This document shows positions 1-16,518 of a stretch of DNA of 16,518 nucleotides, in pieces. The translations under genes and the position numbers were made by a program. The notes beneath the pieces were generated by a model. It was not told where the DNA came from, ran no database searches, and saw only the letters and a list, made by a program, of their open reading frames with translations. This DNA comes from Candidatus Hydrogenedens sp. Its GTDB lineage: Bacteria > Hydrogenedentota > Hydrogenedentia > Hydrogenedentales > Hydrogenedentaceae. Each line of letters opens with the position of its first letter. Within the stretch, counting starts at the first letter, position 1. The stretch covers positions 1 through 16,518 of the forward strand of contig JAIWNQ010000214.1 in the NCBI GenBank assembly GCA_020216745.1, written 5' to 3'.

Positions 1-1069
1 GACTCCATGCAGTTGGTAGATTAGAAATTCCTGAACGTTTTCTCATCATGAAATTGCGATTTTCAGGGTCATGCACGACAAACTGGTCCCATTCACGACG
101 GGTAATGTCAAAACTTAATGTTAACTTATCATTCGGAAAACGGTAAGCAAGACCTACACCGAAAGAGGAAGGAAACGTATATTTTAACGGTCTCTTGCTG
201 TAATAAAATCCTGGCACACCAAGCCCACGAGTAATTGCCCACCACTCTTCATAATCTACATCCGCCGTGAATTTGGAATTATAAACAAAACCTATTTGCC
301 AACGCTCTCCTAATCGATACAGAGCACCCAAAGTAACGTTTGTCCCCTCAAAGTTCTTGTATTTCTTTCTTATAACAGTATGCGAAAAAGAGGCACGTGT
401 CGTTTGTCCGTTAGTTCGAAACGTTCGATATTCTTCCTGGTCCACAGTCCATTCGTTGTTACTTAGTATTGATTGGTTCCAAAGATTTAACACAAGTCCC
501 ACAGAAAGTCGGTCTGTTAATTCAAAACCAAATGCAGGAGATAATGACGCCAGTTGCCCACTTTGTTTATAGTTAACCTGCGAATGTAACCCTAAAACGT
601 TCCCTAATGCTAAAGCCGACATATCACGATAGAAAAAGTCTAATTCACGGTCAAAGTCATACTTCGCTTGATAATTCAAACTCAAAACGAGGTTCCGTCC
701 TTTAATAGTTCGACGGAAAGGATAAACAAAACTCATGTAGTTTAATTGACTAAAATCGATAGAATAATCCTCTTTAAGTTCAGGGTGTGTTGATGATTCA
801 AAATCCTCGCCGATATATTTATATGAATAAACCATTGAAAATTCTGGACGTTCCAACTGTGTTAAACCTCCAGGGTTCCATGAGGCTGAGGTGGCATCGT
901 CCGCTATTGCTATGAAGGCACCACCCATCCCAATTGCACGGGCTCCACTACCGATTACATTCGGTGACGAATTAATAGGGATACCCTGTGCACTTGCTTC
1001 TTCCAAAATACCTATTAAGCAAAATGCAAAAATAATATTACATAGTGATTGAAGGTAAACCTTTTTCAA
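1..1069 (-). CDS. FadL/OmpP1-like outer-membrane beta-barrel protein, 3' end cut by window edge
   Basis: The frame is open for 356 codons from a TTG at 1069 down to the left edge, so the C-terminus is missing. The first 28 residues form a good signal peptide: MKK, a hydrophobic stretch, and an ASA|Q cleavage site near residue 27. Residues 42-52 read GARAIGMGGAF, followed by IADDATSASWNPGGL (about 55-69). This is the N-terminal signature of the FadL/OmpP1 and PorV-like barrel families, which sit in the outer membrane and often carry hydrophobic compounds. The rest alternates aromatic and polar residues, as beta strands do (for example TLSFDITRREWDQF near the edge). The TTG start is chosen because a GGAGGG Shine-Dalgarno lies 8 nt upstream and because it alone includes the signal peptide. 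The first 32 bases overlap the end of the lipoprotein gene at 1038-3203, implying translational coupling. The transported substrate cannot be told. Confidence 0.85.
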   Translation of the reverse strand, partial: MKKVYLQSLCNIIFAFCLIGILEEASAQGIPINSSPNVIGSGARAIGMGGAFIAIADDATSASWNPGGLTQLERPEFSMVYSYKYIGEDFESSTHPELKEDYSIDFSQLNYMSFVYPFRRTIKGRNLVLSLNYQAKYDFDRELDFFYRDMSALALGNVLGLHSQVNYKQSGQLASLSPAFGFELTDRLSVGLVLNLWNQSILSNNEWTVDQEEYRTFRTNGQTTRASFSHTVIRKKYKNFEGTNVTLGALYRLGERWQIGFVYNSKFTADVDYEEWWAITRGLGVPGFYYSKRPLKYTFPSSFGVGLAYRFPNDKLTLSFDITRREWDQFVVHDPENRNFMMRKRSGISNLPTAWS

Positions 1070-3203: not shown

Positions 3204-3447
3204 GTAACACTCCCTAATCTATCTTTATTTTTGTTTTTCGTTCCTTTATATTTATTTTACCATTTATTTAACAAAAAATGGATTATTTTTTCAGTATATT
3301 TTAATTATTCATAAAAATCAAAAATATTTTGTCCTTTATACCCATATTCTCATATCTTTTACGAAAAATTAAAACAACACAATTACTTCATTATTTTTGT
3401 TAATATTATAAACTATATTATTTTACACATTATTTTAGGGACTTTCA

Positions 3448-4395
3448 ATGAAAAGTTTATTCAGCATTTTATTTCTTCTATTACTTCAAATGATATTAAT
3501 TGCAGAAGCACAAAACGACTCCTTAAACACATCTGAATTTTCATACGGTTTTTGGCTCACATCTGTATACCCTACAGATAAGCCTAATATAGCAGGTAAA
3601 TTAATTCTTCCATCCATCACACAAGAAAATAAACCGCCAATCTGGAGGATAGCACAATGGGGTACCCAATACCCTTTGAATAGTGGAGCATTTCAACAAC
3701 AAAACGAAACGACATGGTTTATCGAAAATGAAGCAAAAAAGGTTATGCTACTGAAGAAAAACAATCATTGGGTAATCCTTCTAAACTGCAACGGAATTAC
3801 AGAATATAATGGCAAACTGCGGAAATATGGTGAACCATGGGCACATGTATTAATTGAAAAACACTTTCCTCAAGAAATAAAAATAAAAGAATACGATTTA
3901 AAGTTTGAAATAAAATTTCAAATAACTCGTTGTATGTGCGACTCTACCTTAAAAGAAAAAGTCGATCCTCATTTACATACTGCTCAAATTACAGCCTACT
4001 GGACAGTAAAAAATACAAACCCCCGTAGCCCAGACTATGAAGATTATTTTTGGTTCGGTATTCCAATTTTTGATGCTCGTTATACAATCCCACCAGAGTA
4101 TATTAGTAAAGATGTAGGTTCTGCATATACTACCAACAAATTAATTGCTGTCATTGATGGAAACCGATTTTATAAAGGAAATACAGGTGATGGAACACCT
4201 AAGATGCTCAATGTAACCTTAAATTCTTATATTGAGGAATCTCTCAATAAAGGGAAGAATCAAGGTTTCTTAAAAAATTCAAATATTGATGACCTTTCAA
4301 TCACTTCCTTCAATTTAGGGTGGGAAGTTACTGGACCTTATAACGCTGAGATAGAAATTTCACACATCTCTATGCCATGCATCCCTAAAAAATAA
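3448..4395 (+). CDS. Secreted protein of unknown function, probably beta-rich
   Basis: 315 aa. The N-terminus is a clear Sec signal peptide: MKSLFS, a long Leu/Ile core, and a likely cleavage after AEA at residue 21. The mature protein is rich in aromatic and polar residues (for example DYFWFGIPIFDARYTIPPEY and SFNLGWEVTGPYNAEIEISH), as in jelly-roll or concanavalin-like folds. I recognise no catalytic motif and name no family. Two close Cys (CMC, around residue 168) and a Cys near the C-terminus (MPCIPKK) could form disulphides. The ATG is preceded by AGGGA about 6 nt upstream. It diverges from the lipoprotein gene across 244 bases of very AT-rich DNA with no clear promoter. The next gene, also for a probable secreted protein, follows after 125 bases. 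A carbohydrate-binding role would suit that neighbour but is a guess. Confidence 0.7.
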   Translation: MKSLFSILFLLLLQMILIAEAQNDSLNTSEFSYGFWLTSVYPTDKPNIAGKLILPSITQENKPPIWRIAQWGTQYPLNSGAFQQQNETTWFIENEAKKVMLLKKNNHWVILLNCNGITEYNGKLRKYGEPWAHVLIEKHFPQEIKIKEYDLKFEIKFQITRCMCDSTLKEKVDPHLHTAQITAYWTVKNTNPRSPDYEDYFWFGIPIFDARYTIPPEYISKDVGSAYTTNKLIAVIDGNRFYKGNTGDGTPKMLNVTLNSYIEESLNKGKNQGFLKNSNIDDLSITSFNLGWEVTGPYNAEIEISHISMPCIPKK

Positions 4396-4520
4396 TATTT
4401 ATCCAACATCAAATACTATGAAGATAAAAAGTTGTTTTAACTGTATTTGTACATAAATTTTTTTAGAAATCTATAAGAGAATATAATACTAAAAAACATA
4501 ACTTTGTTGGAGGTATAAGT

Positions 4521-5639
4521 ATGCTTAATATGTTCTTGTTATCAGTTATAGGTATTTTCTCAATGGGTAATAATGCAGATGTGCGTTGGATTCATCCACT
4601 GGTCCAGACACTTGAAATTGATAGAAATGGTCCATTTGTAAATCTTGATGACAACTCCATTGGCACAATAGATATTCATGGGTTCCGTGTGAGTAAAGAT
4701 GACGGAAAAACATGGTCGGAAGCAATCCCTGTCTGCAAAGGAATAGACCCTGAAGAACCTGCCTCTTATTATCTACTTCGGACTAAGAACAACACATTAA
4801 TTTTTGTCTATCTGAACTTTATCGGCAAAAATTTCGACTGGGATGAAAAAACAAAAGAACCTGGGAAAAATAGCAAATTAGAAGTATGGGCAATTAGAAG
4901 TATTGATGGTGGTAAAACATGGATAGATAACCAATGCATACTTGAAGGATATAACACTAATTTCTTTGCATTAATACAGACTCGTTCTGGTAGGGTCATC
5001 GCACCATTTGACCACCTAACCAGCCAGCCAGGTCATTTTATTATCTGCACTGTATTTTCAGACGATGAGGGTAAAACGTGGCAAAAAAGTAATTGGATTG
5101 ATATCGGAGGACATGGTCATCATGACGGAGCATTAGAGCCTACTCTTGCAGAATTAAGCGACGGCAGGTTGCTTATGCTGATTCGCACCAGTTTAGACCA
5201 ATTCTGGCAGGCAATTTCAGAAAACGATGGAAAGTATTGGCGAATTATCCAGCCCAGTGGAATTAATGCAAGTAACTCTCCAGGATATTTACTACGATTG
5301 AACAGTGGCAGACTTGTTTTGGTCTGGAATCAACTCAACCCTGAGGGACGAGAACAAAAAAAGAGTATTATGCCTCAACATACAGAGTTTCCCTCGTCAT
5401 GGCATCGAGAGGAACTTTCCATTGCCTTCTCAGAAGACGATGGCAAAACTTGGACAAAACCTGTCGTAATAGCTCGCCAGCCTGGCGGACAATTGAGTTA
5501 TCCTTACCTGTTCGAGAGACGTCCAGGTGAACTATGGATTATTCCAGGTTTCGCATTCAAAAAAATGTGGGAGGAGCCTTTTCCACTACGACTTAAAATC
5601 GACGAACAAACGTTCCTGAACGAAATACAAAAAAGGTAA
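4521..5639 (+). CDS. Sialidase-like (BNR/Asp-box) six-bladed propeller protein
   Basis: 372 aa. Five Asp-box motifs (SxDxGxTW type) are visible: SKDDGKTW 58-65, SIDGGKTW 127-134, SDDEGKTW 180-187, SENDGKYW 233-240 (degenerate) and SEDDGKTW 304-311. They are spaced as in sialidase propellers. Residues 206-223 (EP...ELSDGRLLMLIRT) and the later PGYLLRLNSGRLVLVW and YPYLFERRPGELWI stretches match the exo-alpha-sialidase-like superfamily that includes many uncharacterised glycan-active enzymes. Glu206 and Arg222 are candidates for the conserved acidic and arginine positions. I cannot show that the full Arg triad and Tyr/Glu nucleophile pair are present, so sialic acid may not be the substrate. 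The N-terminus MLNMFLLSVIGIFSMGNNA is hydrophobic but uncharged, a weak signal peptide. A GGAGG Shine-Dalgarno lies 7 nt before the ATG, and a lone TATAAT sits at 4482-4487 without a good -35. Confidence 0.85.
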   Translation: MLNMFLLSVIGIFSMGNNADVRWIHPLVQTLEIDRNGPFVNLDDNSIGTIDIHGFRVSKDDGKTWSEAIPVCKGIDPEEPASYYLLRTKNNTLIFVYLNFIGKNFDWDEKTKEPGKNSKLEVWAIRSIDGGKTWIDNQCILEGYNTNFFALIQTRSGRVIAPFDHLTSQPGHFIICTVFSDDEGKTWQKSNWIDIGGHGHHDGALEPTLAELSDGRLLMLIRTSLDQFWQAISENDGKYWRIIQPSGINASNSPGYLLRLNSGRLVLVWNQLNPEGREQKKSIMPQHTEFPSSWHREELSIAFSEDDGKTWTKPVVIARQPGGQLSYPYLFERRPGELWIIPGFAFKKMWEEPFPLRLKIDEQTFLNEIQKR

Positions 5640-5745
5640 TTTATAAGCCACAATTTAATTACTAACACACTGGGAACACATGAATAGTTCACTTTTTAGC
5701 ACGACTAATTCCATAACATTATCTTATTTTCTCGACCATTCAAGT

Positions 5746-5774
5746 TTGAAATGTATCTGTTTTTTTGGTAAAAT
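5746..5774 (+). promoter_or_regulatory. Sigma-70-type promoter for the tRNA pair
   Basis: TTGAAA at 5746-5751, a 17-base spacer, and TAAAAT at 5769-5774. The -10 ends 14 bases before the first base of tRNA-Gly. Transcription would start at about 5781, leaving a very short leader. Spacing and position both fit a housekeeping promoter. Confidence 0.6.
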
Positions 5775-5788
5775 TAATATACAATTAA

Positions 5789-5864
<76 letters not shown>

Positions 5865-5875
5865 TTTTTTTAATA

Positions 5876-5951
5876 GGGCCGTTAGCTTAGTTGGTAGAGC
5901 AGGGGACTCTTAATCCCAAGGTCGCAGGTTCGACTCCTGCACGGCCCACCA
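5876..5951 (+). tRNA. tRNA-Lys (anticodon CTT)
   Basis: A full cloverleaf is visible. The acceptor stem GGGCCGT pairs with ACGGCCC, the D-arm is GCTT/GAGC, the anticodon loop is CTCTTAA with CTT at 5909-5911, and the T-arm is GCAGG TTCGACT CCTGC. The discriminator is A and CCA is encoded. The top pair of the anticodon stem is G-A (5902/5918), a mild irregularity. The anticodon CTT reads AAG. It lies 11 bases after tRNA-Gly with no promoter between them. Confidence 0.97.
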
Positions 5952-6075
5952 GATCAGATAACCTACCCCAGATAACCCACACATAAAATGAATAACTACT
6001 ACAGAGTTCGTATCTCGTATTCAACAAATCCCTAAAAACAGACTAATCTATTGCACATGGTTTTAATCCTAATTT

Positions 6076-6777
6076 TCAATTCTCAACCTCTTTTGGTTTA
6101 CGTTTATTCTTGTTATTACTTGCATCTTCTTTTTTACTTTTACTTTTCTGTGGATTTATGTTTTTATATTGGATGGAACACCCTAAAGCTGAGAAACCAA
6201 ACCATGCCAACTTTGACATCATATCTACATAAGAAGGCTCAAAACTTAGACCTACATGGATTATCCCGCCATATTCTAAAAACTGGACAATTGCCCAAAC
6301 TATCATTAAAGAGCCAACGGAAGCCGTAGCAACAACAACCACTACTCTTTCAGCAACAAGAGAGAGAACACCACCTACACATCCAATTAAAACCATGAGT
6401 AAGGAATAATCAATTAATCCTGTTAAAATAAAACTGATTATATAAGCACCTAAAAATCCAAGTAAAAAAACACCAACTTTATACATAAAAATAGAGATTA
6501 CAACCCCGACAAGTCCAAAAATGATAGATATAAAAAGCTGAACAACAATAGATAAAAAAGGTAATGGAGAAAGGGTATTGAGCAGTAACCATGAAGTTAG
6601 AAATAAAGTGACAAATCCACAGGCTCCAATTATAAAATAAAGAAACCTATAACCATAGAAACAACAGAGGAACCCTATAATCCATATCGCAATAAGTATC
6701 GGTAACACGGGGGATAATTGCGACATCATTATTTCCACATCAAACACGTTTTTAGACATACAAAACAAAGTGTACAT
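6076..6777 (-). CDS. Multi-pass membrane protein, DUF4203-like
   Basis: 233 aa. About seven hydrophobic segments are visible, near residues 22-41, 44-67, 75-97, 99-120, 125-142, 147-167 and 187-203. They are followed by a very basic, Lys-rich cytoplasmic-type tail (about 204-233). The GFLCCFYGYRFLYFIIGACGF stretch and the Gly-rich helices resemble the DUF4203/TM7S3-TMEM198 group of small membrane proteins, whose bacterial function is unknown. The gene starts 18 bases after the stop of the exported protein at 6796-7932 and so probably forms an operon with it. Starts at Met7 or Met17 are also possible, since the ribosome-binding site is weak. The family call is by resemblance only. Confidence 0.75.
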   Translation of the reverse strand: MYTLFCMSKNVFDVEIMMSQLSPVLPILIAIWIIGFLCCFYGYRFLYFIIGACGFVTLFLTSWLLLNTLSPLPFLSIVVQLFISIIFGLVGVVISIFMYKVGVFLLGFLGAYIISFILTGLIDYSLLMVLIGCVGGVLSLVAERVVVVVATASVGSLMIVWAIVQFLEYGGIIHVGLSFEPSYVDMMSKLAWFGFSALGCSIQYKNINPQKSKSKKEDASNNKNKRKPKEVEN

Positions 6778-6795
6778 TGTATTACCCCGAACTCC

Positions 6796-7920
6796 TTATT
6801 TTCTTGCAACAGGGGGGAGTAAATCTTCGACAAATGAAGTAAGTGTTTCTTCTATCCCTAAAAATACGGATAACACAATCAAAATAATAGTCGAAAGAAC
6901 AGTGATTATACTTAATGGACTTATTTGCAATTTGCTTATATCAAGATTACCAGAGAATAAATCTTTTAGCCATGAACCTTGTCCACCCAGGTAAACATAA
7001 TATCTTTTGCCATAGGATTCAATCACTAATATTCCTGATGCTTTATTATAGTCTCGTGGTTGAAATTGGACCTTAAAGGTAACTGTTTGTTGAGGGGGGA
7101 TCAGATACTCATGTTCCCCGACAATCCAAAACTCTGGTTCCCCAATAATCCAGATTTGCATGGGTATTTCTTTTGTCCCTATGTTCTGTGCACTAAATTC
7201 CATTTCCATTACCGTTTTCAATGATACTTTTCCAAAATTTACTAAACTGTTGACTGCAGGAGTAATAATTAGTGGTATATCTTTATCCAATGAAGGGATC
7301 TCCAGTTCTCCTTCTACAGGGTTTTCTCCTGGAGTTATCGCATACTCTACAAACAAATTAAAATCGCCTTCAGCTAATTGATATTCCTTTTTATTGGATA
7401 TTTTATCTCCATCAAGGTCTGCTGTCCCACGGAGATACAGACCTCCATTAAGATTATAATTTTTCAAATCTAACTTTATGCCAAATTCACTCAATGCACC
7501 TTGAACAAAATACTGGATAGATAGCGGTTCACCTAAGGTTATTATTGCTGCAGAAAACCGCTCTATCTCATCGCATGAAATACCATATAGCTGATAAATA
7601 GCAGTACAACGACTTCCTAAGGTGTTATCTTTTTTTATTTGTATCCAATTATAATAATATGTGGCTAATAAGAAATCATGGTTTGGAACCTTGTCATCTC
7701 TTAGAACACGGTCTAACAACCGAGCATGGGCACGGTCAGGAATTCCATTCTTATCCTCATCGAGTACATCAGGGTCTACTTCTGAATCAAATGCCTTAGT
7801 TATTTTTACAAATATTGCTTCTGCTTCTATATCTAAAACATAAGCAGGCAATGTAAAAAGTAAAAAACAAAGAACGTAAAAGAGGGTAATTTTTGATAAA
7901 TTTGTTTTGAATATAGTCAT
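6796..7920 (-). CDS. Exported protein with Ca-binding-type motifs, an ASH/HYDIN-like Ig domain and a C-terminal anchor
   Basis: 374 aa from the ATG at 7920. A GTG at 7932 would add four residues, and neither start has a clear Shine-Dalgarno. Numbers below count from the GTG. Residues 8-37 form a signal peptide or anchor. DEDKNGIPDRA (58-68) and DLDGDKISNKKEY (172-184) match the DxDxDG-type calcium loops of thrombospondin-3/dockerin-like repeats. Residues about 224-318 look like an ASH/HYDIN-type Ig domain: a VNFGKV strand, NIGTKEIPMQI, then a VTFKVQFQPRD strand and a G-I-L-V-I strand. Residues about 338-360 are a strong transmembrane helix, so the bulk would be held outside the inner membrane with a short tail. 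Two Cys (109 and 120) may pair. It is upstream of the DUF4203-like gene. The overall family is not recognised and the function is unknown. Confidence 0.75.
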   Translation of the reverse strand: MTIFKTNLSKITLFYVLCFLLFTLPAYVLDIEAEAIFVKITKAFDSEVDPDVLDEDKNGIPDRAHARLLDRVLRDDKVPNHDFLLATYYYNWIQIKKDNTLGSRCTAIYQLYGISCDEIERFSAAIITLGEPLSIQYFVQGALSEFGIKLDLKNYNLNGGLYLRGTADLDGDKISNKKEYQLAEGDFNLFVEYAITPGENPVEGELEIPSLDKDIPLIITPAVNSLVNFGKVSLKTVMEMEFSAQNIGTKEIPMQIWIIGEPEFWIVGEHEYLIPPQQTVTFKVQFQPRDYNKASGILVIESYGKRYYVYLGGQGSWLKDLFSGNLDISKLQISPLSIITVLSTIILIVLSVFLGIEETLTSFVEDLLPPVARK

Positions 7921-8006
7921 AGTTAAATTCACTTTATTAAATTTACTATTTTTATATTAGACTCGTTATCATTTAAAATAGATTTACCTTTTAAATACTT
8001 TTGGAA

Positions 8007-8023
8007 GCATTATAATACAATGC
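8007..8023 (+). promoter_or_regulatory. -10 element TATAAT inside a short inverted repeat
   Basis: A perfect TATAAT (8011-8016) lies 21 bases before the ATG of the 72-aa gene. It sits inside GCATT-N7-AATGC, a 5-base inverted repeat that could be an operator. The core TTATAA also gives a TATAAT on the other strand, facing the divergent gene that ends at 6796. No good -35 is visible on either strand. Confidence 0.35.
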
Positions 8024-8037
8024 AGAGGTAAAAGAGA

Positions 8038-8256
8038 ATGAAATACTTTAAAATATCTCAATTTGTCCCCGGAAAAGGGGATGCGTGGACATACTATGAA
8101 TGTGATGATGATGGGACTATCTTACGACAATTAACATACATTCCTACCACCAACGAAATTAATAAAGTTTCTGACCCTATTGTGAAAAAATTATATCGAC
8201 CTGATTTATTAACACTCACAGAGCAGGAAGAATTCATTTCGCTCTGGAATAAGTAG
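8038..8256 (+). CDS. Small hypothetical protein, 72 aa
   Basis: AGAGG lies 9 nt before the ATG and the gene has a perfect TATAAT upstream. The protein begins MKYFKISQFVPGKGDAWTYY and continues with a DDDG turn, suggesting a small beta-sheet domain followed by a helical C-terminus (LTEQEEFISLWNK). There is no signal peptide and no Cys except one. The start resembles small immunity-like or DUF6881-type proteins, but I do not make that assignment. It lies 46 bases before the PHP gene in the same direction and may share its transcript. Confidence 0.65.
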   Translation: MKYFKISQFVPGKGDAWTYYECDDDGTILRQLTYIPTTNEINKVSDPIVKKLYRPDLLTLTEQEEFISLWNK

Positions 8257-8302
8257 TTCTAAAATATTTACTATGATGGACCCTTAGAAGGAGCCCTACG
8301 AG

Positions 8303-9172
8303 ATGAAAATTAAAAGTCCATACCTAAACACAAGTAATTATATTTGGGCAAAAGGCAATTTACACACACATACATCTATAAGTGATGGTATTTATTCTCC
8401 ACAGGAAACAGCAGATAAATATGCATCTATGGGATATCAATTTTTGATGTTTAGCGACCATGATATCCTAACCGACATTACAGAGGTAAAAGTAGATGGA
8501 ATGGTTATCATTGCTGGAAATGAAATTACCATAGATGGACCGCATATTCTACACATAAATGCCAGAAATAAAATAGAACCCTATCCAGACCGACAAAAGG
8601 TTATAAATAACATTATTCAGAATGGTGGATTTGCCATTATCTCCCACCCAAACTGGGAAGAAGATTTTAATCACTGTCCACAAGAACTTTTAGAATCATG
8701 GCAAAACTACACAGGAATAGAAATTTACAATGGTATTGTGCGTCAACTCCCAGGAAACCCCAGTGCTACTGACCGTTGGGATTTACTCCTTTCTAAAGGA
8801 ATATATGTATGGGGATATGCTCATGACGATGCACACTGGGAAGATAATTATGGTGTTGCGTGGAATGTAGTACAAGTAGAAACACTTAGTTTTAGCAATG
8901 TGCTTAACGCTCTAAAGAAAGGGTGTTTCTACGCAAGTTCAGGTGTCGAAATCAACCAAATATCAGTACATGGAAATATAATTTCCATCAAAAGTTCAAA
9001 TGCAAAAAAAATCGCTGTTGTTGTAGACTATGGACGTAGAATACATCAATGTAAAGGAAATAATATTGACTTTGAAGTAAAGGATAATTTCCCATATACT
9101 TACCTACGATTTGAATTATGGGGGGATGGAGAAGACCAGGCGTGGACACAGCCTTTCTTTATTCAAAGGTAA
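8303..9172 (+). CDS. PHP-domain metal-dependent phosphoesterase
   Basis: 289 aa. All PHP metal-binding motifs are visible. NLHTHTSISDG has His21 and His23, FSDHD has Asp52-His53-Asp54, AGNEIT has Glu74, ILHINA has His84, ISHPNW has His115, and YAHDDAHW has His174 with Asp175 and Asp176. PHP proteins use two or three divalent metals to hydrolyse phosphoesters; this short stand-alone form is related to the YciV/RnaAM group of nucleases and phosphatases. Residues after about 210 (KGCFYASSGVEI onward) form an extra beta-rich C-terminal part. It has no signal peptide, so it should be cytoplasmic. AGGAG precedes the ATG. The substrate is unknown. Confidence 0.9.
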   Translation: MKIKSPYLNTSNYIWAKGNLHTHTSISDGIYSPQETADKYASMGYQFLMFSDHDILTDITEVKVDGMVIIAGNEITIDGPHILHINARNKIEPYPDRQKVINNIIQNGGFAIISHPNWEEDFNHCPQELLESWQNYTGIEIYNGIVRQLPGNPSATDRWDLLLSKGIYVWGYAHDDAHWEDNYGVAWNVVQVETLSFSNVLNALKKGCFYASSGVEINQISVHGNIISIKSSNAKKIAVVVDYGRRIHQCKGNNIDFEVKDNFPYTYLRFELWGDGEDQAWTQPFFIQR

Positions 9173-9210
9173 AAAATTGCAAAATTAATAAAATTTATGA
9201 AAACTTTTCA

Positions 9211-9238
9211 CTGACAAATTGTATTAAATCAATATAGA
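9211..9238 (+). promoter_or_regulatory. Candidate promoter for the small-peptide operon
   Basis: CTGACA at 9211-9216, a 16-base spacer and TATAGA at 9233-9238. It lies in the 149-base gap before the first peptide gene. A second lone TATAAT is at 9280-9285 without a good -35. The DNA is very AT-rich, so false matches are likely. Confidence 0.3.
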
Positions 9239-9321
9239 GATTTTTCATGTTCAAATGTAATAAAATAATGCATTAGAAATATAATATATAGAACCTATGA
9301 ATAAATCAGAGGAGAAAATGT

Positions 9322-9483
9322 ATGAAACATACCTATGCGATAACAATGCTTAAAAAAGCAGAAGTTGAAACAAAATTAACAGTAGGTCAAGTTTTAACCC
9401 TTGTAGCGAATATCCTAAGTGTTGTGGCTCAGGCTTTTATCGCTAAAGAAGAAGGATCCACAACAATAACATCTACAAAATAA
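9322..9483 (+). CDS. Small peptide 1 of the locus, possible precursor, 53 aa
   Basis: The gene has an AGGAG Shine-Dalgarno 7 nt before the ATG. The peptide begins MKHTYAITMLKKAEVETK, continues with a hydrophobic helix (LTVGQVLTLVANILSVVAQ, about residues 19-37), then AFIAKEEG and a Ser/Thr tail STTITSTK. The layout of a basic N-terminus, helix and Ser/Thr tail recurs in peptides 2 to 4. The N-terminus is close to that of peptide 5 (MKHIRKMTLRKADAF). This pattern fits an exported bacteriocin-like or RiPP precursor with a short leader. There is no Sec cleavage site and no Cys, so lanthionine or disulphide chemistry is not expected. It could instead be an intracellular regulatory or membrane-active peptide. 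Too short for a confident family. Confidence 0.7.
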   Translation: MKHTYAITMLKKAEVETKLTVGQVLTLVANILSVVAQAFIAKEEGSTTITSTK

Positions 9484-9503
9484 CTGTAAAAAGGAATTTA
9501 GAT

Positions 9504-9713
9504 ATGAAACGAATTAAATCTATGACCTCCCTGCCACGACGTGCCCAACAACAAGAGACAGGAGGTGGATTCTGCACTAAAATTGAAAGCGATTATCAAG
9601 CATTCTTATGTTTTCTACTTGAAGTTCTAACAGGTTTCTTCTTACCATTAGCGGAAATTAAAAAACCACAAGAAACAAATAACTCAACCCAAACAAGTGA
9701 AACTGGAAGTTAG
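9504..9713 (+). CDS. Small peptide 2 of the locus, possible precursor, 69 aa
   Basis: AAGGA lies 8 nt before the ATG, 20 bases after the stop of peptide 1. The N-terminus MKRIKSMTSLPRRAQQQETG shares MK-x-I-K/R-x-MT with peptide 5. A GGGFC stretch follows, which resembles the Gly-rich leader ends of some peptide substrates but is not a proven cleavage site. Then comes a hydrophobic helix (DYQAFLCFLLEVLTGFFLPL, about 30-49), the charged AEIKK, and a Ser/Thr/Asn tail ending TQTSETGS. There are two Cys (in GGGFC and AFLCF), unlike the other four peptides, which have none. Its role is inferred only from layout and neighbours. Confidence 0.65.
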   Translation: MKRIKSMTSLPRRAQQQETGGGFCTKIESDYQAFLCFLLEVLTGFFLPLAEIKKPQETNNSTQTSETGS

Positions 9714-9731
9714 TGATTAAACTTTGATATA

Positions 9732-9773
9732 CAAACTTCCAAAGTTTGAAAAATAAGTGCTTTGTAGTATAAT
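9732..9773 (+). promoter_or_regulatory. Internal promoter overlapped by a hairpin, before peptide 3
   Basis: CAAACTT-CCA-AAGTTTG (9732-9748) is a perfect 7-base-pair hairpin with a 3-base loop. An alternative 8-base pairing AAACTTTG/CAAAGTTT (9719-9726 with 9740-9747) uses the same right arm. TTGAAA (9746-9751), a 16-base spacer and TATAAT (9768-9773) form a strong sigma-70 match whose -35 begins in the hairpin's right arm. Transcription would start near 9780, about 27 bases before the ATG of peptide 3. The dyad could be an operator, or end transcripts from peptides 1-2, although no T-run follows. Confidence 0.5.
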
Positions 9774-9806
9774 AACATCTATATTAACTTTTTACTCAAT
9801 AGATAT

Positions 9807-9959
9807 ATGAAACATATAAAAAAACAAACATACAAAACACCACAGCCTGCTGTGACCGCAGATGTGATTTTAATACTTGTTATTCAATTATTAGAGGCTA
9901 TTAGAAATCTCGTGTCTACAAAAGCGACAATTTCTACAAACATAACAAATACGACTTAA
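9807..9959 (+). CDS. Small peptide 3 of the locus, possible precursor, 50 aa
   Basis: The N-terminus MKHIKKQTYKTPQPAVTA is basic, like peptides 1 and 5. A hydrophobic helix follows (DVILILVIQLLEAIRNLV, about residues 19-36), then STK and a Thr/Ser/Asn tail ending ISTNITNTT. There is no Cys and no Sec cleavage site. No clear Shine-Dalgarno precedes the ATG, so the short leader from the internal promoter matters. The start is chosen because its MKHI matches peptide 5. It has its own promoter at 9746-9773. Function is inferred from context only. Confidence 0.65.
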   Translation: MKHIKKQTYKTPQPAVTADVILILVIQLLEAIRNLVSTKATISTNITNTT

Positions 9960-9984
9960 AATTGAGATTGTTCTTATAGATAGA

Positions 9985-10215
9985 ATGAACAAAAAAAATA
10001 CTCAACATATTAATCAAATAACAAAATTAAGTAGTTCAGTTACAGTAGGCTACTTTCATTTTACTGTTGATAATATTTTGAAGTTTATTCAAGATGTTAT
10101 CAAAATATTTATTCCTGTAGTTAGCAACAAAGACCCAGAAGTTCCATTAGGTGGTGGTACAACAACTTCCACTTCATCATCGTCGTCATCATCGTCATCA
10201 TCAAGTAGTTCATAA
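9985..10215 (+). CDS. Small peptide 4 of the locus, with a poly-serine tail, 76 aa
   Basis: The peptide begins MNKKNTQHINQITKLSSS and continues with a hydrophobic/aromatic stretch (VTVGYFHFTVDNILKFIQDV, about 19-38, then IKIFIPVV). It then has the charged SNKDPEVPLGGG and a tail of Thr and 13 consecutive Ser. It shares the helix-then-Ser/Thr layout of peptides 1-3 but not the MKHI start. The serine run is coded by a trinucleotide tract (10174-10203) whose length could vary. The ribosome-binding site is weak. The Gly-Gly-Gly before the tail could be a linker. Too little is seen to name a family. Confidence 0.6.
   Translation: MNKKNTQHINQITKLSSSVTVGYFHFTVDNILKFIQDVIKIFIPVVSNKDPEVPLGGGTTTSTSSSSSSSSSSSSS
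10174..10203 (+). repeat. Trinucleotide (TCR)10 tract coding poly-serine
   Basis: Ten consecutive TCA or TCG triplets in the frame of peptide 4, followed by AGT AGT TCA before the stop. Slippage by whole triplets would change only tail length; slippage by one or two bases would not be expected from this repeat unit. Confidence 0.85.
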
Positions 10216-10251
10216 AAATAACAATAAATTAACCAATATGGGATTATTAGT

Positions 10252-10371
10252 ATGAAACACATACGCAAAATGACCCTAAGAAAAGCGGACGCTTTCACTA
10301 ATTTTATGAATGCAGTTTGGCGTGCGTGGATGGATTTTCGTTACGAAAAGAAAAACGAAATTGGCTTTTAA
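10252..10371 (+). CDS. Small peptide 5 of the locus, possible precursor, 39 aa
   Basis: The peptide begins MKHIRKMTLRKADAFTNF, sharing MKH and a LxKA[DE] motif with peptide 1 and MK-x-I-x-x-MT with peptide 2. A Trp-rich amphipathic part follows (MNAVWRAWMDFRYEKK) and it ends NEIGF. There is no Ser/Thr tail, no Cys and no export signal. A short GGGA before the ATG may serve as ribosome-binding site. The shared leader makes this the strongest case that the small ORFs are related genes rather than chance frames. The aromatic core differs from the others and could mark a separate peptide type or a regulator. Confidence 0.6.
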   Translation: MKHIRKMTLRKADAFTNFMNAVWRAWMDFRYEKKNEIGF

Positions 10372-10406
10372 TTTATTTATCCAAACACACTCAAAAGAGC
10401 CTCCTT

Positions 10407-10430
10407 CCCAAAAAAAAGTATTGGGGTTTT
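10407..10430 (+). terminator. Weak terminator or attenuator between peptides and enzyme genes
   Basis: CCCAA (10407-10411) can pair with TTGGG (10421-10425) around a 9-base loop, followed by GTTTT. The stem is short, so this is more likely partial read-through than a full stop. It would let precursor genes be expressed above the modification and export genes, as in many peptide operons. Confidence is low. Confidence 0.3.
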
Positions 10431-10462
10431 AAATGATTAAAAAAATAGGCTATTGATTTTTT

Positions 10463-10990
10463 ATGATTAACAAGGAACATGCCATCATTCGCACATCAGA
10501 CCTATTTGATGCCAAACATTTATTACGATTTTACGCCAGTGAAAACATGTACGGAGCCTTACTTGATGGAAAGCGTGAGCCTATTCTGCCCAATCAGAGT
10601 GAATTGGAGGAACTCCTACAAAACAAAGATGCAACACAATCTTTTTATGCAGTCGAAGATAAAGAAGGGAACCTCCACGGGTTCATTGTTTTGAAGGGTA
10701 TCAATCAGGAGGCTCTTTTTGGTGAAATCATTCTTTTATTCGATAATCAAACGTATTTAACAAATTCGCCATTAATCCATGATGCATTAGAATTTATCGA
10801 AAATAAGGCATTCCGACAACTTCACTTAAAAAAACTTGTGACCACCTGCATCGATGAAGAAGAGCCTCTTAAAAATTTCCTTCAACAACACCTATATATT
10901 CTGGCAGGAATAATGCGGGAGGTGTTATTTGCTCGTGGAAAATGGCATAATCTTGAAACATGGGTTAAATTAAGTTCTACCACGAACTAA
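10463..10990 (+). CDS. GNAT-family N-acetyltransferase-like protein (degenerate)
   Basis: 175 aa. The secondary-structure order fits a GNAT fold: IIRTSDLFDAKHLLRFY at the start, SFYAVEDKEGNLHGFIVLKG, a helix LIHDALEFIENKAF, strand LKKLVTTCI, and a RimL-like end REVLFARGKWHNLETWVKL. The canonical acetyl-CoA loop (Q/RxxGxG/A) is not seen; the expected place is FDNQTYLTNSPL. So it may bind a different acyl donor or be inactive. GNATs move an acyl group from CoA to an amine of a peptide, protein or small molecule. It is the first gene after the peptides, 92 bases after peptide 5. Its ribosome-binding site is poor. Confidence 0.75.
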   Translation: MINKEHAIIRTSDLFDAKHLLRFYASENMYGALLDGKREPILPNQSELEELLQNKDATQSFYAVEDKEGNLHGFIVLKGINQEALFGEIILLFDNQTYLTNSPLIHDALEFIENKAFRQLHLKKLVTTCIDEEEPLKNFLQQHLYILAGIMREVLFARGKWHNLETWVKLSSTTN

Positions 10991-11026
10991 TATTCATTTA
11001 ATAGTATTATTTGAGGGATTAGAGCA

Positions 11027-11647
11027 GTGAGTATTGTTACAAAAACATTTATTCGTAGAGCAGATAGAGAGGACCTCGACCTGCTTGTTCGCTGGATGGA
11101 AGATGAAGATTTTCAATACTTCCTTTATGGAGACCCTGCACGTTCCCCTCGTCTTATTCGTGACCAGATTGTAGGTTATTTAAGTAAAACCGCAGGCAGT
11201 CCTATCCCTGGAAGTGTTTATTTCATCGTCGATTCGCCTAACGGACCTATTGGCATGATTTCATTACAAAATATCAGTTGGCGGAATCGTTCCTGTAATC
11301 TTGATGTCTACATATCACCTCAACATCGAGGACACCTTTCAACAGGGATTAATGTATACCGTGCATTAGAGTATGCCTTTGACGAATTAAACATGCACCG
11401 TGTTTCTGCAATTATCTACGCTTTTAATCAACCCTCTTGGAGATTACTCGAGTTTCTGGGTGCTAAAAGGGAAGTAACCTTAAAAGACCATATACTGCGA
11501 AATGGTATCTGGCACGATGTGTTTGTTTACGGCTTACTAAAACAAGAATTTAATGCATGGCGTGAAAAATATGCTGAACAATCCAAAGAAGTCACTTTGC
11601 AAAAAATGATAGAGTCCATGAAATGCTATTTGGAGAAAAATTTGTGA
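11027..11647 (+). CDS. GNAT-family N-acetyltransferase (RimJ/RimL-like)
   Basis: 206 aa from a GTG start with GAGGG 9 nt upstream. FIRRADREDLDLLVRWMED at the N-terminus and the central strand-helix pattern match the RimJ/RimL GNAT subfamily, whose founding members N-acetylate ribosomal protein amino termini. The acyl-CoA loop is visible as SPQHRGHLSTG (about 97-107), and the ending N-x-x-S-W-R-L-L-E-F-L-G-A (about 134-146) is typical. In peptide-maturation loci RimL-type enzymes acetylate the amino terminus or lysine of the product (goadsporin, microviridin). Its last four bases (GTGA) overlap the start of the CPBP gene. The upstream GNAT is 36 bases away. Confidence 0.88.
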   Translation: MSIVTKTFIRRADREDLDLLVRWMEDEDFQYFLYGDPARSPRLIRDQIVGYLSKTAGSPIPGSVYFIVDSPNGPIGMISLQNISWRNRSCNLDVYISPQHRGHLSTGINVYRALEYAFDELNMHRVSAIIYAFNQPSWRLLEFLGAKREVTLKDHILRNGIWHDVFVYGLLKQEFNAWREKYAEQSKEVTLQKMIESMKCYLEKNL

Positions 11648-12357
11648 ATCCAAAGTACCTACTTATCATTTTTGTGATTTATATTCTGTTAGAATTTACA
11701 CGGAATCTGTTCAAAAAAAATTTTTTTTCTTCCCTTACAAAAATGTGCCAATTTGTTCTACTTATCTGCTCAATCATATATTTGGCAATCATAGGCATCT
11801 TACCAAGAAATTTATTTAACATCTCCAGTTGGATTATCGGACTGATATTAGGGCATATCGTTTATACAATAGGTTTCTTTATAACAATCGGTTTTAATGA
11901 ACTCGTCAAAAATCAATTCCTATCTATCCAAAAAATACTCCGTTTTTCTGTTCTATCCCCTATTATTCTCAGTCGCACAATGACAATAGCACTAACAGAA
12001 GAAATCATTTATCGAGCAAGTTTACAAACCATCTTAATAAATGTGACAGCAAAACCGATACTTTCAGTCTTTATTATTTCTATTGCTTTTACTCTTGTCC
12101 ATGAACATGTCTTCGTTAACAATATTCGTCAAAACATTGAATTTGTGGTGTTTTCCATCTTTTTAGGGTTTGCATATTACCTAACATCTGATTTAGGACT
12201 TGTAACGATAATCCACTTTATTCGCAATATGGAAAGTAACTACTTAGAATACCAAGAAAAACTAATTGAAGAGCCTGATGAAGAGCGTTGTTTAACAGAA
12301 TTAGAGCAATCTCTGTTTAGTCCCAATGGAGTCAAGGAATGCAAGGCAAACAATTAA
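11644..12357 (+). CDS. CPBP (CAAX/bacteriocin-processing) family intramembrane protease
   Basis: 237 aa from GTG at 11644. This start overlaps the previous stop as GTGA and has GGAG 8 nt upstream, so it is preferred to the ATG at 11623. All three CPBP motifs are present: EEIIYR (Glu119, Glu120, Arg124), FTLVH (Phe149, His153) and HFIRN (His191, Asn195). About six to seven hydrophobic helices are visible and the C-terminus is acidic. CPBP proteins are Rce1-like intramembrane glutamate proteases; in bacteria they often sit in bacteriocin and peptide loci as immunity proteins or leader peptidases. Here either role is possible: it lies between the GNAT and the ABC exporter. The final 19 bases overlap the ATPase gene. 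Confidence 0.9.
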   Translation: MNPKYLLIIFVIYILLEFTRNLFKKNFFSSLTKMCQFVLLICSIIYLAIIGILPRNLFNISSWIIGLILGHIVYTIGFFITIGFNELVKNQFLSIQKILRFSVLSPIILSRTMTIALTEEIIYRASLQTILINVTAKPILSVFIISIAFTLVHEHVFVNNIRQNIEFVVFSIFLGFAYYLTSDLGLVTIIHFIRNMESNYLEYQEKLIEEPDEERCLTELEQSLFSPNGVKECKANN

Positions 12358-13421
12358 ACAACTTAATAAACGATTATACAGTCTACCTTGACAACGTCTC
12401 GAAGACCTTTCGCACATATCATTTTTTTCACAAAGATGATGTAACAGACAAAAGAAGAATTCTTACTAAAAAAGAAGCCTGCGCCGCTGACCATGTTACC
12501 TTCGGAATTAAAACGGGTGAAATTATGGGCTTATTGGGACCTAATGGTGCAGGGAAAACAACCACTGTAAAGATGATTTCTACATTGGTAAAACCTGATA
12601 GTGGAACCGTATTTGTAGATGGGATGAATGTAGAGAAACACCGAAAAGAAGTATTATCAAGAATAGGTGTAGTTTTAGAAGGAACACGAACAAGCATCTG
12701 GCCACTAACACCTCTTGAAAATTTGTATTATTATGGGAACCTTCGAAATATCCGAGGTAAAGTATTAAAAGAAAGGGCAAATCAACTCCTCGATTTTATA
12801 GGATTAAAAGACAAAAAGGATATTGAAGTCCGCAAACTATCGCGAGGTCAAAAACAAAAATTGGCAATTTGTATCGCTCTTATCGCAGACCCCAAAATTA
12901 TCCTTTTCGACGAGCCAACCACAGGATTAGACGTACAAAGTAGTCGCTCTATTAAAGACAAAATCATTGAACTAACCCGCCATTATGGCAGGTCTGTACT
13001 TGTAACAACACATGATATGCATGTTGCTCAAGAATTATGCGACCGCATCGGTATCATCAATAAAGGTAAGCTTATAACCTGTAAGCCTACAACCGAATTA
13101 CTCGATTTATTTTCTAAACAAATCTTTTCCATCCGTTTAGACCGAAATTTGGTTGATAACGACCTTGACCACCTTGCACCTAAAATACAGGTGTTAGAAA
13201 CAATCCTTACCGCGGATGGACCCACAATAACAGTTCAAGTTCCAGAACCATATGCTGAACGGTCCGAGGCAATATATACCTTATTTGAAACGTTACGGCA
13301 GAAAAAATATCAAATTCGCTCCATCCAGCAAAAGCAAGTAAACCTTGAATATATCTTTCTTCAACTTACAGGAGAAAAACCAGTTTTTGATGAAACAAAT
13401 TTATCAGAACAGGAATTATAA
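12339..13421 (+). CDS. ABC transporter ATP-binding protein (ABC-2 export type)
   Basis: 360 aa. Walker A GPNGAGKT 67-74, signature LSRGQ 168-172, Walker B IILFDEP 188-194 and the switch His in TTHD (226) are all present. The Q-loop region reads VVLEGTRTSIWPLTPLENL, with Glu in place of the usual Gln, as seen in some ABC-2 exporters. Residues after about 240 form an extra C-terminal domain. TGGAG lies 7 nt before the ATG, inside the CPBP gene. It pairs with the permease 3 bases downstream. The best inference is an exporter or self-protection pump for the locus peptides. It is larger than the usual 300 aa of this family. Confidence 0.95.
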   Translation: MQGKQLNNLINDYTVYLDNVSKTFRTYHFFHKDDVTDKRRILTKKEACAADHVTFGIKTGEIMGLLGPNGAGKTTTVKMISTLVKPDSGTVFVDGMNVEKHRKEVLSRIGVVLEGTRTSIWPLTPLENLYYYGNLRNIRGKVLKERANQLLDFIGLKDKKDIEVRKLSRGQKQKLAICIALIADPKIILFDEPTTGLDVQSSRSIKDKIIELTRHYGRSVLVTTHDMHVAQELCDRIGIINKGKLITCKPTTELLDLFSKQIFSIRLDRNLVDNDLDHLAPKIQVLETILTADGPTITVQVPEPYAERSEAIYTLFETLRQKKYQIRSIQQKQVNLEYIFLQLTGEKPVFDETNLSEQEL

Positions 13422-13424
13422 AAT

Positions 13425-14264
13425 ATGCTCGGATTCTTACTTATTATGAAAGCGGAAATTATCAGAGGTTGGATTATTACACGAAGATACTGGTTTCGCA
13501 CATTAACGGGACTCATTATTGGCTACGGAATGCTTATGATACTTATTGCAGGCTTCTTCTACAGTCAACCCGCAATAGAAAAAGGAATTAATCAGTTTGA
13601 AGACCCAACACGTGCGACAAACTATATTCTCGGCTTCATTATCGGCTTATTTGCCTTTGGTGTTATAGGAATGTTTACTCAGGGAATTCAGGGCATGGCA
13701 CAAACAGGTATATTAGAACAGCTTTGTATGAGCCCTTATGGACTTGTAACAAATTTCCTTGCCCGTGCGGTAGTCGCTTCAGTATCCACGATTTTTTATT
13801 CTGCTCTTATGGTATATATGGTAGTTGTAAGTGTTGGGGGAAAACTTCACTTTGACCCTATACCAGTCGTAGTCCTTCTAACTTTGTCATTTATCAATTT
13901 ATTAGGCTTCGGCTTCTTAGTAGGCGGGTTAGTCTTGGTTTTCAAACAGGTTGGACAATTAACCATTCTCGTGCGTATGGCACTATTTGCCTTAGCAATC
14001 TTTGCACGCGAGGAATTCCTACAACAAGGGTGGCTCATTTCTGCATTTATGCATGCGTTACCAATTACAGATGCCTCCATCTGCTTGAAATACGTCCTTG
14101 TTAAAGGACAATTGACTAACTCGGGACAATTTGTTTCTGTATTCCTACATCCTTCATTCTACTGGCTCGGTGCCAGCTGTGTATTCTGGACATTTATTGG
14201 TATAACGTTATTTAAAATTATGGAAAATTACAGTAGATATAAAGGAACATTAGGAATATACTAA
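13425..14264 (+). CDS. ABC-2 type transporter permease
   Basis: 279 aa. Six or so transmembrane helices are visible, near residues 28-47, 66-88, 107-132, 143-172, 180-200 and 240-262. The first cytoplasmic stretch (KAEIIRGWIITRRYWFRT) and the QTGILEQLCMSPYG loop match ABC-2 permeases of the drug and peptide export type. There is a single permease gene, so it probably works as a homodimer with the ATPase. Its stop overlaps the next start by one base (TAATG). The partner of the peptides is inferred from location only. Confidence 0.9.
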   Translation: MLGFLLIMKAEIIRGWIITRRYWFRTLTGLIIGYGMLMILIAGFFYSQPAIEKGINQFEDPTRATNYILGFIIGLFAFGVIGMFTQGIQGMAQTGILEQLCMSPYGLVTNFLARAVVASVSTIFYSALMVYMVVVSVGGKLHFDPIPVVVLLTLSFINLLGFGFLVGGLVLVFKQVGQLTILVRMALFALAIFAREEFLQQGWLISAFMHALPITDASICLKYVLVKGQLTNSGQFVSVFLHPSFYWLGASCVFWTFIGITLFKIMENYSRYKGTLGIY

Positions 14265-16108
14265 TGGACTCAATGAAACCAATACACCGATTTGAAAAAA
14301 ATGGACGATATTTCGCAGTAGATATTAAAACTCCTTTCTGCTTCGAATGTGATAAGATAACATTTGATGTCCTTGAATACTATCCAGAACAAACCCAAAC
14401 AAAAATTCTCAATCTGCTTGCTTCTACCTATACCAGGGATGAACTCCTTGAAGTATGGGGAGAACTTGAATGGCTCCGTGCCATCGGTTCTATCCTGAAA
14501 ACACAAAAAATAGAAACATGGGCAAATACCCTTACCCAAACCATCGGACTACATACAATCTCTTTCCTAATCGGTGAAAATATAGAAACATTAATAAAGG
14601 AAACTATCCCCCTAACCTTACTTCGAGCTATACCTCACATTTACGCACAAACAACCTTTAAACTCAACTTCTTCATGAATCCTGCAAATATTTATCCATG
14701 GACAAAAATACAGAAAATTATCCAACAAATATTACAAATATTTATCACAATAAATGATAAAAAAATAAGTATAAATCTTTGCATACCACTACCTGAACAT
14801 ATCTATGAGGAACTAAAAATCAATAAAGAAGAGAAAATTTTCATCGTATTTGAAAAAATTACTAATGATATTTATCAAAAATTAACAGGAAATAGTACCA
14901 CAGATATAAAAAACGTATTAAATGAATCCTATGCGAAAATATGGTATCTGCCAGAGAATATCCCCTTTACTACAACTGTTGAAAAACTTCAAAAATATGG
15001 TACAAAAAAAATAGTCATTGACCTATTTGCACCTTTCATATTAAATCCAAACTTAAACATCCATACCGTATACAACGAAATCACAAATTTGTCACATTAC
15101 TATGCCCAACAATTAATAAAAAGAAAGCAATCTATCATAGAACCCTTCACTGAATTGTTTAAAACAATACAACAGGGTAATCCCGTCAAACGAAAAGACC
15201 CTGCTGGTGCTGAAGAATGGTTTATAGCCGATAACGGCGATGTATTCGGAAGTTATCTATATTTTTTAGGGAACATCCACAAATTAGGCAATATTTATGA
15301 AACAGAAATACCTATCCAAGGTTCGGAATCCATATATCGCCTCGGCATTCTTGCCACATCTGTATGCTCCCGTTGCTGGGCTCAAAATTTCTGCGGAGGT
15401 GGATGCGGTGCTGTGCACTACTGTCTCACAGGAAAAGTTACAGAACCTCAAACGGATTGGTGCAATGCCCACCGAAAATGGATCGAAGATATGATATTCC
15501 TATATCAGGAACTTAATAACTCAGATGCACTATTTACCTTCGAATTTCCAATCAAAACTATCCCAACAAAAACAAATAAACTAACTGTCCTAAAACATAT
15601 TTTCCGTAGCTTCTTTAAAGATTACATCACAATTCGCCCTCTAAAACCACAAGACGAAACATGGCTATCCCATTGGGAAACATGGAACACCTCGCTATAC
15701 TTTACCATGAATGAAGGAAATATCCTAACAACAACCCAGCATGAAAAAGAACAAGACATTTTGACTACCAACAAAACATCAGAAGAATTTGTCATTACTG
15801 ACAAAAAATCAAACCCTCGTGGACTACTGCGAATTCAACCGCATAAAACACCAAACCTTTCAACCCTTTTCATCTATTTTCATAATCCAGAAGACTACGA
15901 TAATACAGACATTATTGAGGGCTTCCAACTCATATTAGAACAAATCAAAACACGTTTTCCCGAAAACAAATGGCTCGTACCCGTCTCAAATAATGACGAA
16001 AAGATGAAACACTTCCTCGAACAACTAAACTTCAAAAGAGCTGGCCAACTCCGTGACGCTATTTTCTTCCACAATCAATACCACCCCGTTGACATCTACA
16101 TAATCTAA
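14264..16108 (+). CDS. PqqD-like/degenerate radical-SAM/SPASM/GNAT fusion protein
   Basis: 614 aa. Residues about 5-82 (IHRFEKNGRYFAVDIKT, FDVLEYYPEQ, LEWLRAIGSILK) match the precursor-recognition (PqqD-like, RRE) start of SCIFF-type maturases. Residues about 95-310 follow the radical-SAM order, but no CX3CX2C exists: Cys occur only at 26, 29, 173, 368, 371, 377, 381, 387 and 400. The usual GGEP motif is replaced by MNPA (138-141). Residues 322-400 resemble SPASM: CX2CX5CX3C at 368-381 and Cys400 are kept, but Ser330 replaces the Cys of GX4C. After about residue 450 a GNAT domain follows (ITIRPLKPQDETWLSHW; final NNDEKMKHFLEQLNFKRAG). So radical chemistry looks lost, while recognition, a partial metal site and acyl transfer may remain. 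It is the last gene of the block. Confidence 0.85.
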   Translation: MDSMKPIHRFEKNGRYFAVDIKTPFCFECDKITFDVLEYYPEQTQTKILNLLASTYTRDELLEVWGELEWLRAIGSILKTQKIETWANTLTQTIGLHTISFLIGENIETLIKETIPLTLLRAIPHIYAQTTFKLNFFMNPANIYPWTKIQKIIQQILQIFITINDKKISINLCIPLPEHIYEELKINKEEKIFIVFEKITNDIYQKLTGNSTTDIKNVLNESYAKIWYLPENIPFTTTVEKLQKYGTKKIVIDLFAPFILNPNLNIHTVYNEITNLSHYYAQQLIKRKQSIIEPFTELFKTIQQGNPVKRKDPAGAEEWFIADNGDVFGSYLYFLGNIHKLGNIYETEIPIQGSESIYRLGILATSVCSRCWAQNFCGGGCGAVHYCLTGKVTEPQTDWCNAHRKWIEDMIFLYQELNNSDALFTFEFPIKTIPTKTNKLTVLKHIFRSFFKDYITIRPLKPQDETWLSHWETWNTSLYFTMNEGNILTTTQHEKEQDILTTNKTSEEFVITDKKSNPRGLLRIQPHKTPNLSTLFIYFHNPEDYDNTDIIEGFQLILEQIKTRFPENKWLVPVSNNDEKMKHFLEQLNFKRAGQLRDAIFFHNQYHPVDIYII

Positions 16109-16283
16109 CCAATTAATATTTCTCAAACCAAAACTTTTGTATAATTGAGACCTCTGAACAAGAGGAGTGAGGGGTTTTTATATAAATTATACACATTTTC
16201 GTAGAAGAAATTAGATCTGCAAATCAAAATAAACAGGAACTCAGAAGGTTATTCCTACCCATTTATTTTTATTCTCCCTCATT
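16109..16283. other. Non-coding stretch with a possible insertion-sequence end
   Basis: No gene is visible. TATAAT is at 16140-16145. GAGACCTCTGAACAAGAGG begins at 16147, and its start resembles the terminal repeats (GAGACCTTTG type) I associate with some IS5-family elements. It also contains the short inverted repeat CCTCT/AGAGG (16151-16155 with 16161-16165). With the transposase remnant facing it, this may be the left end of an old insertion. No terminator with a T-run directly after a stem is seen after the fusion gene. Confidence 0.35.
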
Positions 16284-16518
16284 TTATTTGTTATTTTCTA
16301 ATGTTTTTTCTATCTTTTTATCACCTATGCATATGTCTCCACCTCCCGCTTTAATTCCCCATACATCCGCTTCTAATTATATTCCGCCATCAACAAAAAA
16401 TGATACGCCCCGTTCTTCTCTAATCCCCGAAACCGACATAGCGTCGTCTCGTCCGGGACCACCCCATCAAAGCCGATACCTAAAAACTCTCGAAAGGATA
16501 GACTATCTACTATCTGTT
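16284..16518 (-). pseudogene. IS5-family transposase remnant, frameshifted and cut by the window edge
   Basis: Reading the minus strand from the right edge, one frame gives QIVDSLSFREFLGIGF, then DGVVPDETTLCRFRGLEKNG, ending MAEYN and a stop at 16373-16375. This closely follows the IS5-family pattern 'RLSFRRFLGL...PDHTTLCRFR'. A second frame then continues with LEADVWGIKAGGGDICI to a stop at 16284-16286, and matches the expected next block (LEARG-x-x-IKxG-x-x-VDAT) only after a frameshift near 16375. The DDE active-site region that would follow is absent. It is therefore a decayed insertion sequence and not an active transposase. It lies about 175 bases after the peptide operon and faces it. 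Confidence 0.75.

Follow-up and report, generated by a model that had tools for sequence, protein, structure and literature searches.

In the SCIFF (six cysteines in forty-five) ranthipeptide system, the leader of the precursor CteA is bound as a beta-strand by the RRE of the maturase CteB (PMC8326336, partial text); RRE denotes the recognition element of ribosomally synthesized and post-translationally modified peptides (RiPPs). In PqqE, the region onto which PqqD docks covers ligands of both the Aux I (5% protection) and the Aux II (17%) auxiliary cluster (PMC10906245, partial text). The selidamides carry a fatty acyl group on a Lys or Orn side chain. Here we describe a cassette in a 16,518-nt stretch of Candidatus Hydrogenedens sp. 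DNA (assembly GCA_020216745.1, contig JAIWNQ010000214.1, positions 1–16,518, forward strand; this whole stretch is hereafter the window) that includes the gene for P0001, a relative of the SCIFF maturases. With a probability of roughly 60%, we read it as a RiPP-type cassette, found in most examined Hydrogenedentota, in which P0001 is a leader-binding pseudoenzyme that hands peptides to GNAT proteins, a protease and an exporter. The literature searched, whose coverage was partial and left most subscription journals outside, contained no description of this cassette, of a SPASM domain fused to a GNAT fold or of a pseudoenzyme of the radical-SAM/SPASM type. The basis of the comparison is largely draft genomes and one model.

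Architecture and cysteine pattern of P0001

The original prediction described P0001 as a radical S-adenosylmethionine (SAM)/SPASM maturase homologue with a PqqD-like start, a lost cluster motif and a fused GNAT domain, and this architecture was confirmed. The N-terminal domain has a PqqD-like fold that aligns to residues 3–88 of the CteB RRE, and is followed by a radical-SAM barrel fold, a SPASM region (TIGR04085, 30.1 bits against a cut-off of 27) and a GNAT fold. The SCIFF maturase model TIGR03974 scores 66.6 bits, below its equivalog cut-off of 425. The top NCBIfam match is NF040492, the ScfB-related orphan maturases (E 3.7e-24, best over residues 220–413), and a Pfam search returned DUF7249 alone, below cut-off.

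Cysteines were mapped by aligning the SCIFF maturase of Acetoanaerobium noterae (L097) to a family alignment of 58 rows (57 distinct sequences; 54 clusters at 90% identity). The CX3CX2C triad is missing from P0001, and the columns of L097 C101, C105 and C108 contain no Cys in any row (7, 31 and 56 gaps, respectively). The SAM-binding GGEP motif is likewise absent from all 58 rows, with variable residues in its columns. Both absences had been noted in the single sequence and prove to be family-wide. At the Aux I-type positions (L097 C333, C341, C359 and C412), Cys occurs in 0, 0, 3 and 4 rows, the replacements being mainly E/D/Q/H at the first, D (57/58) at the second, S (41/58) at the third and H/S/N/T at the fourth, so that the family lacks the full Aux I plus Aux II set of SPASM domains. 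The Aux II-type cysteines C399, C402, C408 and C431 correspond to C368, C371, C377 and C400 of P0001 and are invariant. The Aux I and Aux II labels follow what we take to be the ligand numbering of anSME, not ligand distances.

Beyond the original prediction, the retained Aux II-type set is joined by two new cysteines in an RRE strand, C26 and C29 (FCFEC), where both CteB and the L097 maturase read AVHVV. A third RRE cysteine at position 24 (C-x-C-x-x-C) is found in 49/58 rows and is Pro in P0001. These two and the Aux II-type four are the only invariant cysteines, which rules out a non-canonical cluster motif within the barrel.

The family is conserved. P0001 was matched in 35/40 genomes, and the family profile in 63/68 genomes of the phylum (its own genome included in both; the 68 all from one order). 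One profile match (G006) covers a GNAT domain only, so the protein is counted in 62/68 genomes, in some as contig-edge fragments. A search of 5.8 billion proteins yielded 67 members including P0001, with every organism-named one from Hydrogenedentota; the sole addition from the profile search was P0068, a distant radical-SAM protein that is intact. Scanning the genome contigs gave one locus, and viral contigs searched with CteB gave nothing useful. In family f4 the protein is missing from five of six examined genomes (G006, G019, G024, G028 and G032) and kept in G014.

The claim that acyl transfer had been added is not supported in that form. The acyl-CoA P-loop, [Q/R]xxGxG/A (PMC13060382, partial text), is found after strand 4 in 0/58 C-terminal GNAT folds and, at the same position, in 0/20 and 0/23 sequences of the two separate GNAT-fold proteins of the cassette, GNAT1 and GNAT2; the string occurs away from the loop position in 17, 2 and 3 of them, respectively. 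The missing P-loops in all three folds argue against ordinary acyl-CoA chemistry. In hhalign comparisons the C-terminal fold is nearer to GNAT1 (E 1.3e-15) than to GNAT2 (E 3.4e-7), and it may therefore have originated from a cassette neighbor.

Precursor peptides, leaders and the surrounding cassette

The original prediction did not extend to the genes upstream of P0001. Five short open reading frames (ORFs) precede GNAT1 in the window (Table 1); they have a leader of the form KH[IL]xx[IL][ST] in common and unrelated cores, and are followed by GNAT2, a CPBP protease and an ABC (ATP-binding cassette) exporter, all upstream of the P0001 gene. A leader-motif scan of 26 stretches (the window, 17 cassette loci and 8 further ones) collected 90 peptides, although it missed the true members class IV of the window and classes II and IV of L023; a class V-like peptide of L029 was found and left out of the counts. 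Among 127 pairs of different peptides from one locus, identity is 0.45 at positions 1–9 and then falls to 0.18, 0.09 and 0.09, which indicates a leader/core pattern. Class II accounts for 11/90 peptides, each with two Cys, while Cys past residue 16 occurs in 2/79 of the others, so that core Cys is nearly gone. Class V was matched in 54/68 phylum genomes (E <= 0.01) and in none of the six examined f4 genomes, G014 included. PDB searches with the short peptides returned nothing useful.

A seven-position matrix built from the 90 cassette leaders was compared with SCIFF peptides, of which 72 of at most 50 aa were used among 120 listed of 5,778 matches (48 longer ones were left out). At a threshold of 12, the matrix recovered 63/72 SCIFF peptides among the matches listed against 2/7,415 background N-termini, and no sequence of the background attained the SCIFF median among those matches, 18.0. 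Some of the highest-scoring background entries are cassette peptides overlooked by the motif scan. The likeness to the SCIFF-type leader KH[IV]KT[LI][STN] is one of leader only: the SCIFF peptide model TIGR03973 (cut-off 50 bits) gave no match above cut-off in 40 genomes, its matches below cut-off appeared in 28/40 genomes and also in 9/14 control genomes, and it matched none of ten cassette peptides. From the matrix contrast, leader recognition seems to have been retained after radical chemistry was lost.

In 20 loci, none longer than 20 kb, a P0001-type gene was detected throughout, together with GNAT2, the permease and the ABC ATPase; GNAT1 and the CPBP protease were detected in 19, the exception for both being L031. 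The EE..R and His motifs are retained in the CPBP protein.

Table 1 Features of the cassette in the window (positions in nucleotides)
Feature	Position	Strand	Remark
Precursor peptide class I, 53 aa	9322..9483	+	Leader MKHTYAIT
Precursor peptide class II, 69 aa	9504..9713	+	Two core Cys (FC...LCF)
Precursor peptide class III, 50 aa	9807..9959	+	Relatives in same-genus loci
Precursor peptide class IV, 76 aa	9985..10215	+	NKDP motif, Ser-rich tail; degenerate leader HINQIT, outside the 90
Precursor peptide class V, 39 aa	10252..10371	+	
GNAT-fold protein 1 (GNAT1)	10463..10990	+	Without acyl-CoA P-loop; of the two, the nearer paralogue of the GNAT fold in P0001
GNAT-fold protein 2 (GNAT2)	11027..11647	+	Without canonical P-loop
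CPBP/Rce1-like intramembrane protease	11623..12357	+	EE..R and His motifs; putative leader cleavage
ABC transporter ATPase, DrrA-like	12339..13421	+	TIGR01188 247.6 bits, cut-off 312
ABC permease candidate	13425..14264	+	No Pfam/NCBIfam match; role suggested by position and conservation
P0001, 614 aa	14264..16108	+	RRE, cluster-less radical-SAM barrel, SPASM (Aux II-type Cys only), GNAT fold
RRE of P0001, residues 4–88	14273..14527	+	Invariant C26 and C29 (FCFEC)
SPASM Aux II-type set of P0001	15365..15463	+	C368, C371, C377, C400; Cys in 58/58 rows
C-terminal GNAT fold of P0001	15617..16105	+	Residues 452–614

Upstream, a PHP-domain-like gene (8303–9172; 23 bits, Pfam cut-off 26.4) and a 72-aa ORF (8038–8256) were rejected as cassette members because they lie beside the cassette in only 2/20 loci, the same-genus L022 and L023; the contig of L021 stops short of this region. 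A second, diverged GNAT2-like gene lies within the cassettes of L027 and L028. Five further loci from five genomes (L082, L083, L086, L087 and L088) have the same relative peptide order and two class V-type copies, with no other cassette gene detected. The poly-Ser run of class IV (10150–10212) is a simple repeat in the DNA, and tails rich in Ser, Thr, Gly and Pro occur in several relatives. Scans of the DNA gave 25 promoter-like sites against 27.1 in shuffles, and 10 terminator-like sites against 4.1.

Proposed function and alternative readings

Together, these features point to a peptide-making system without radical chemistry. We propose that the RRE of P0001 would hold the SCIFF-type leader (KHIxxI[ST]) of the five short, mostly hydrophobic peptides, while barrel and SPASM would act as a docking scaffold, presumably pinned by a single remaining Aux II-type Fe-S cluster; by analogy with PqqE, a structural role fits that cluster. 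The C-terminal GNAT fold may form a complex with GNAT1 and GNAT2 that handles the peptides; the CPBP protease would remove the leader near a conserved Ala, and the ABC pair would export the cores. Of the original prediction, a repurposed maturase homologue without radical motifs is supported, and putative binding without radical chemistry is consistent with the fold, the lost motifs, the phylum-wide conservation and the leader type that the peptides seem to share with SCIFF; the acyl-transfer part is not supported as worded.

Several points weigh against this reading. Leader conservation is partly built in because the peptides were collected by a leader pattern, and the SCIFF likeness covers seven residues in 72 peptides that are all close relatives of one query. 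Three of the 20 loci (L026, L031 and L037) have no peptide beside the cassette, class V lying on a separate contig in their genomes (G038, G022 and G027). Class V is unmatched in 8/62 protein-bearing genomes, and of its 54 matches the one in G040 is weak (E 0.0017). Class V is also lacking from all six genomes that lack the protein, but this co-occurrence is not independent because five of them come from a single family and the other has a completeness of 60%. Among NCBIfam models there is none that names the peptides, and class IV touches a thiopeptide-precursor model below cut-off, over its Ser-rich tail. Finally, the docking data for PqqE are not specific to Aux II (PMC10906245, partial text), and C26 and C29 have no explained role.

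Among the alternatives, the one that survives best, though we consider it unlikely, is an active acyltransferase system in which the GNAT folds acylate a conserved C-terminal Lys, as in selidamides, and the RRE-SPASM part merely presents the peptide. A Lys past residue 22, numbering from the leader anchor, is present in 88/90 peptides, and Lys33 of class V, which the selection pattern did not include, in all 17 aligned loci. Where the GC content of a locus exceeds 55%, the ratio of Lys to Arg is 72:29 in the later cores against 95:95 in the leaders. GNATs that acylate Lys or Orn are also documented in RiPP pathways, and one of the GNAT domains of NpuN has no clear P-loop (PMC13060382, partial text). 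Against it stand the P-loops missing from every GNAT set above, and a conserved Lys is compatible with other roles. We give rather little credence to a more speculative variant, a radical-free SCIFF descendant with leader and RRE kept, in which the three P-loop-less GNAT folds and the new RRE cysteines would carry out an unrecorded peptide modification, such as acylation or aminoacylation of the conserved Lys with a non-CoA donor.

It is improbable that another radical-SAM enzyme supplies the radical step in trans with P0001 as a PqqD-like chaperone, despite the PqqD/PqqE precedent (PMC10906245, partial text) and the presence of other SPASM proteins in the genomes. A second SPASM match in the cassette stretch was found in 0/15 genomes (of 25 with a SPASM search; SPASM-less radical-SAM genes were not searched), and the scarcity of core Cys outside class II speaks against it as well. 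Seven SPASM proteins encoded elsewhere (L090–L096, ~440–500 aa, with a C-terminal CPCGSGKKYKKCC-like tail) resemble anaerobic sulfatase maturases by reading and were set aside as radical partners; the leader-motif scan at their loci gave four matches in three loci, apparently unrelated. Very improbable, too, is an Fe-S redox or iron sensor in which the lone Aux II-type cluster and the RRE Cys pair gate peptide release: six cysteines are invariant in 58/58 rows, but no sign of regulation was seen in the cassette and a structural role suffices for them. Gene decay, suggested by the lost catalytic motifs, can be dismissed given an open frame, 34 invariant columns across the 58 rows, and the protein's presence in 62/68 genomes.

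If the leader-binding pseudoenzyme reading is correct, P0001 would be a natural example of a radical-SAM peptide maturase that evolved into a conserved pseudoenzyme while keeping its former leader code. The cysteine pattern suggests a distinction between a structural cluster (Aux II) and catalytic ones, and the structural role of Aux II is directly testable. It would also add a multi-peptide system, without description in the literature searched, that is carried by the majority of genomes examined in a single, largely uncultured phylum.

Comparison with known systems

Like the selidamide/nostolysamide enzyme NpuN, which has two GNAT folds, the system places GNAT-fold proteins in a RiPP cassette, but the NpuN cassette has a lanthipeptide synthetase and one intact P-loop (PMC13060382, partial text). 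With PqqD/PqqE it has in common an RRE plus a SPASM docking surface, whereas PqqE is catalytic and carries an Aux I and an Aux II cluster besides the radical one (PMC10906245, partial text). The ScfB-related orphan maturases are the best NCBIfam match of P0001 and yet lie far off, scoring 85 bits where the cut-off is 855. Aureocin A70 and similar multi-peptide bacteriocins pair a transporter with several peptides that are short and hydrophobic; the present cassette differs in its leader and RRE and in its phylum-wide spread. Relative to the SCIFF ranthipeptide system (CteA/CteB; TIGR03973/TIGR03974), the radical triad and the Aux I-type set are missing and a GNAT fold is added, and there are five peptides with mostly Cys-free cores, adjoined by protease and ABC genes.
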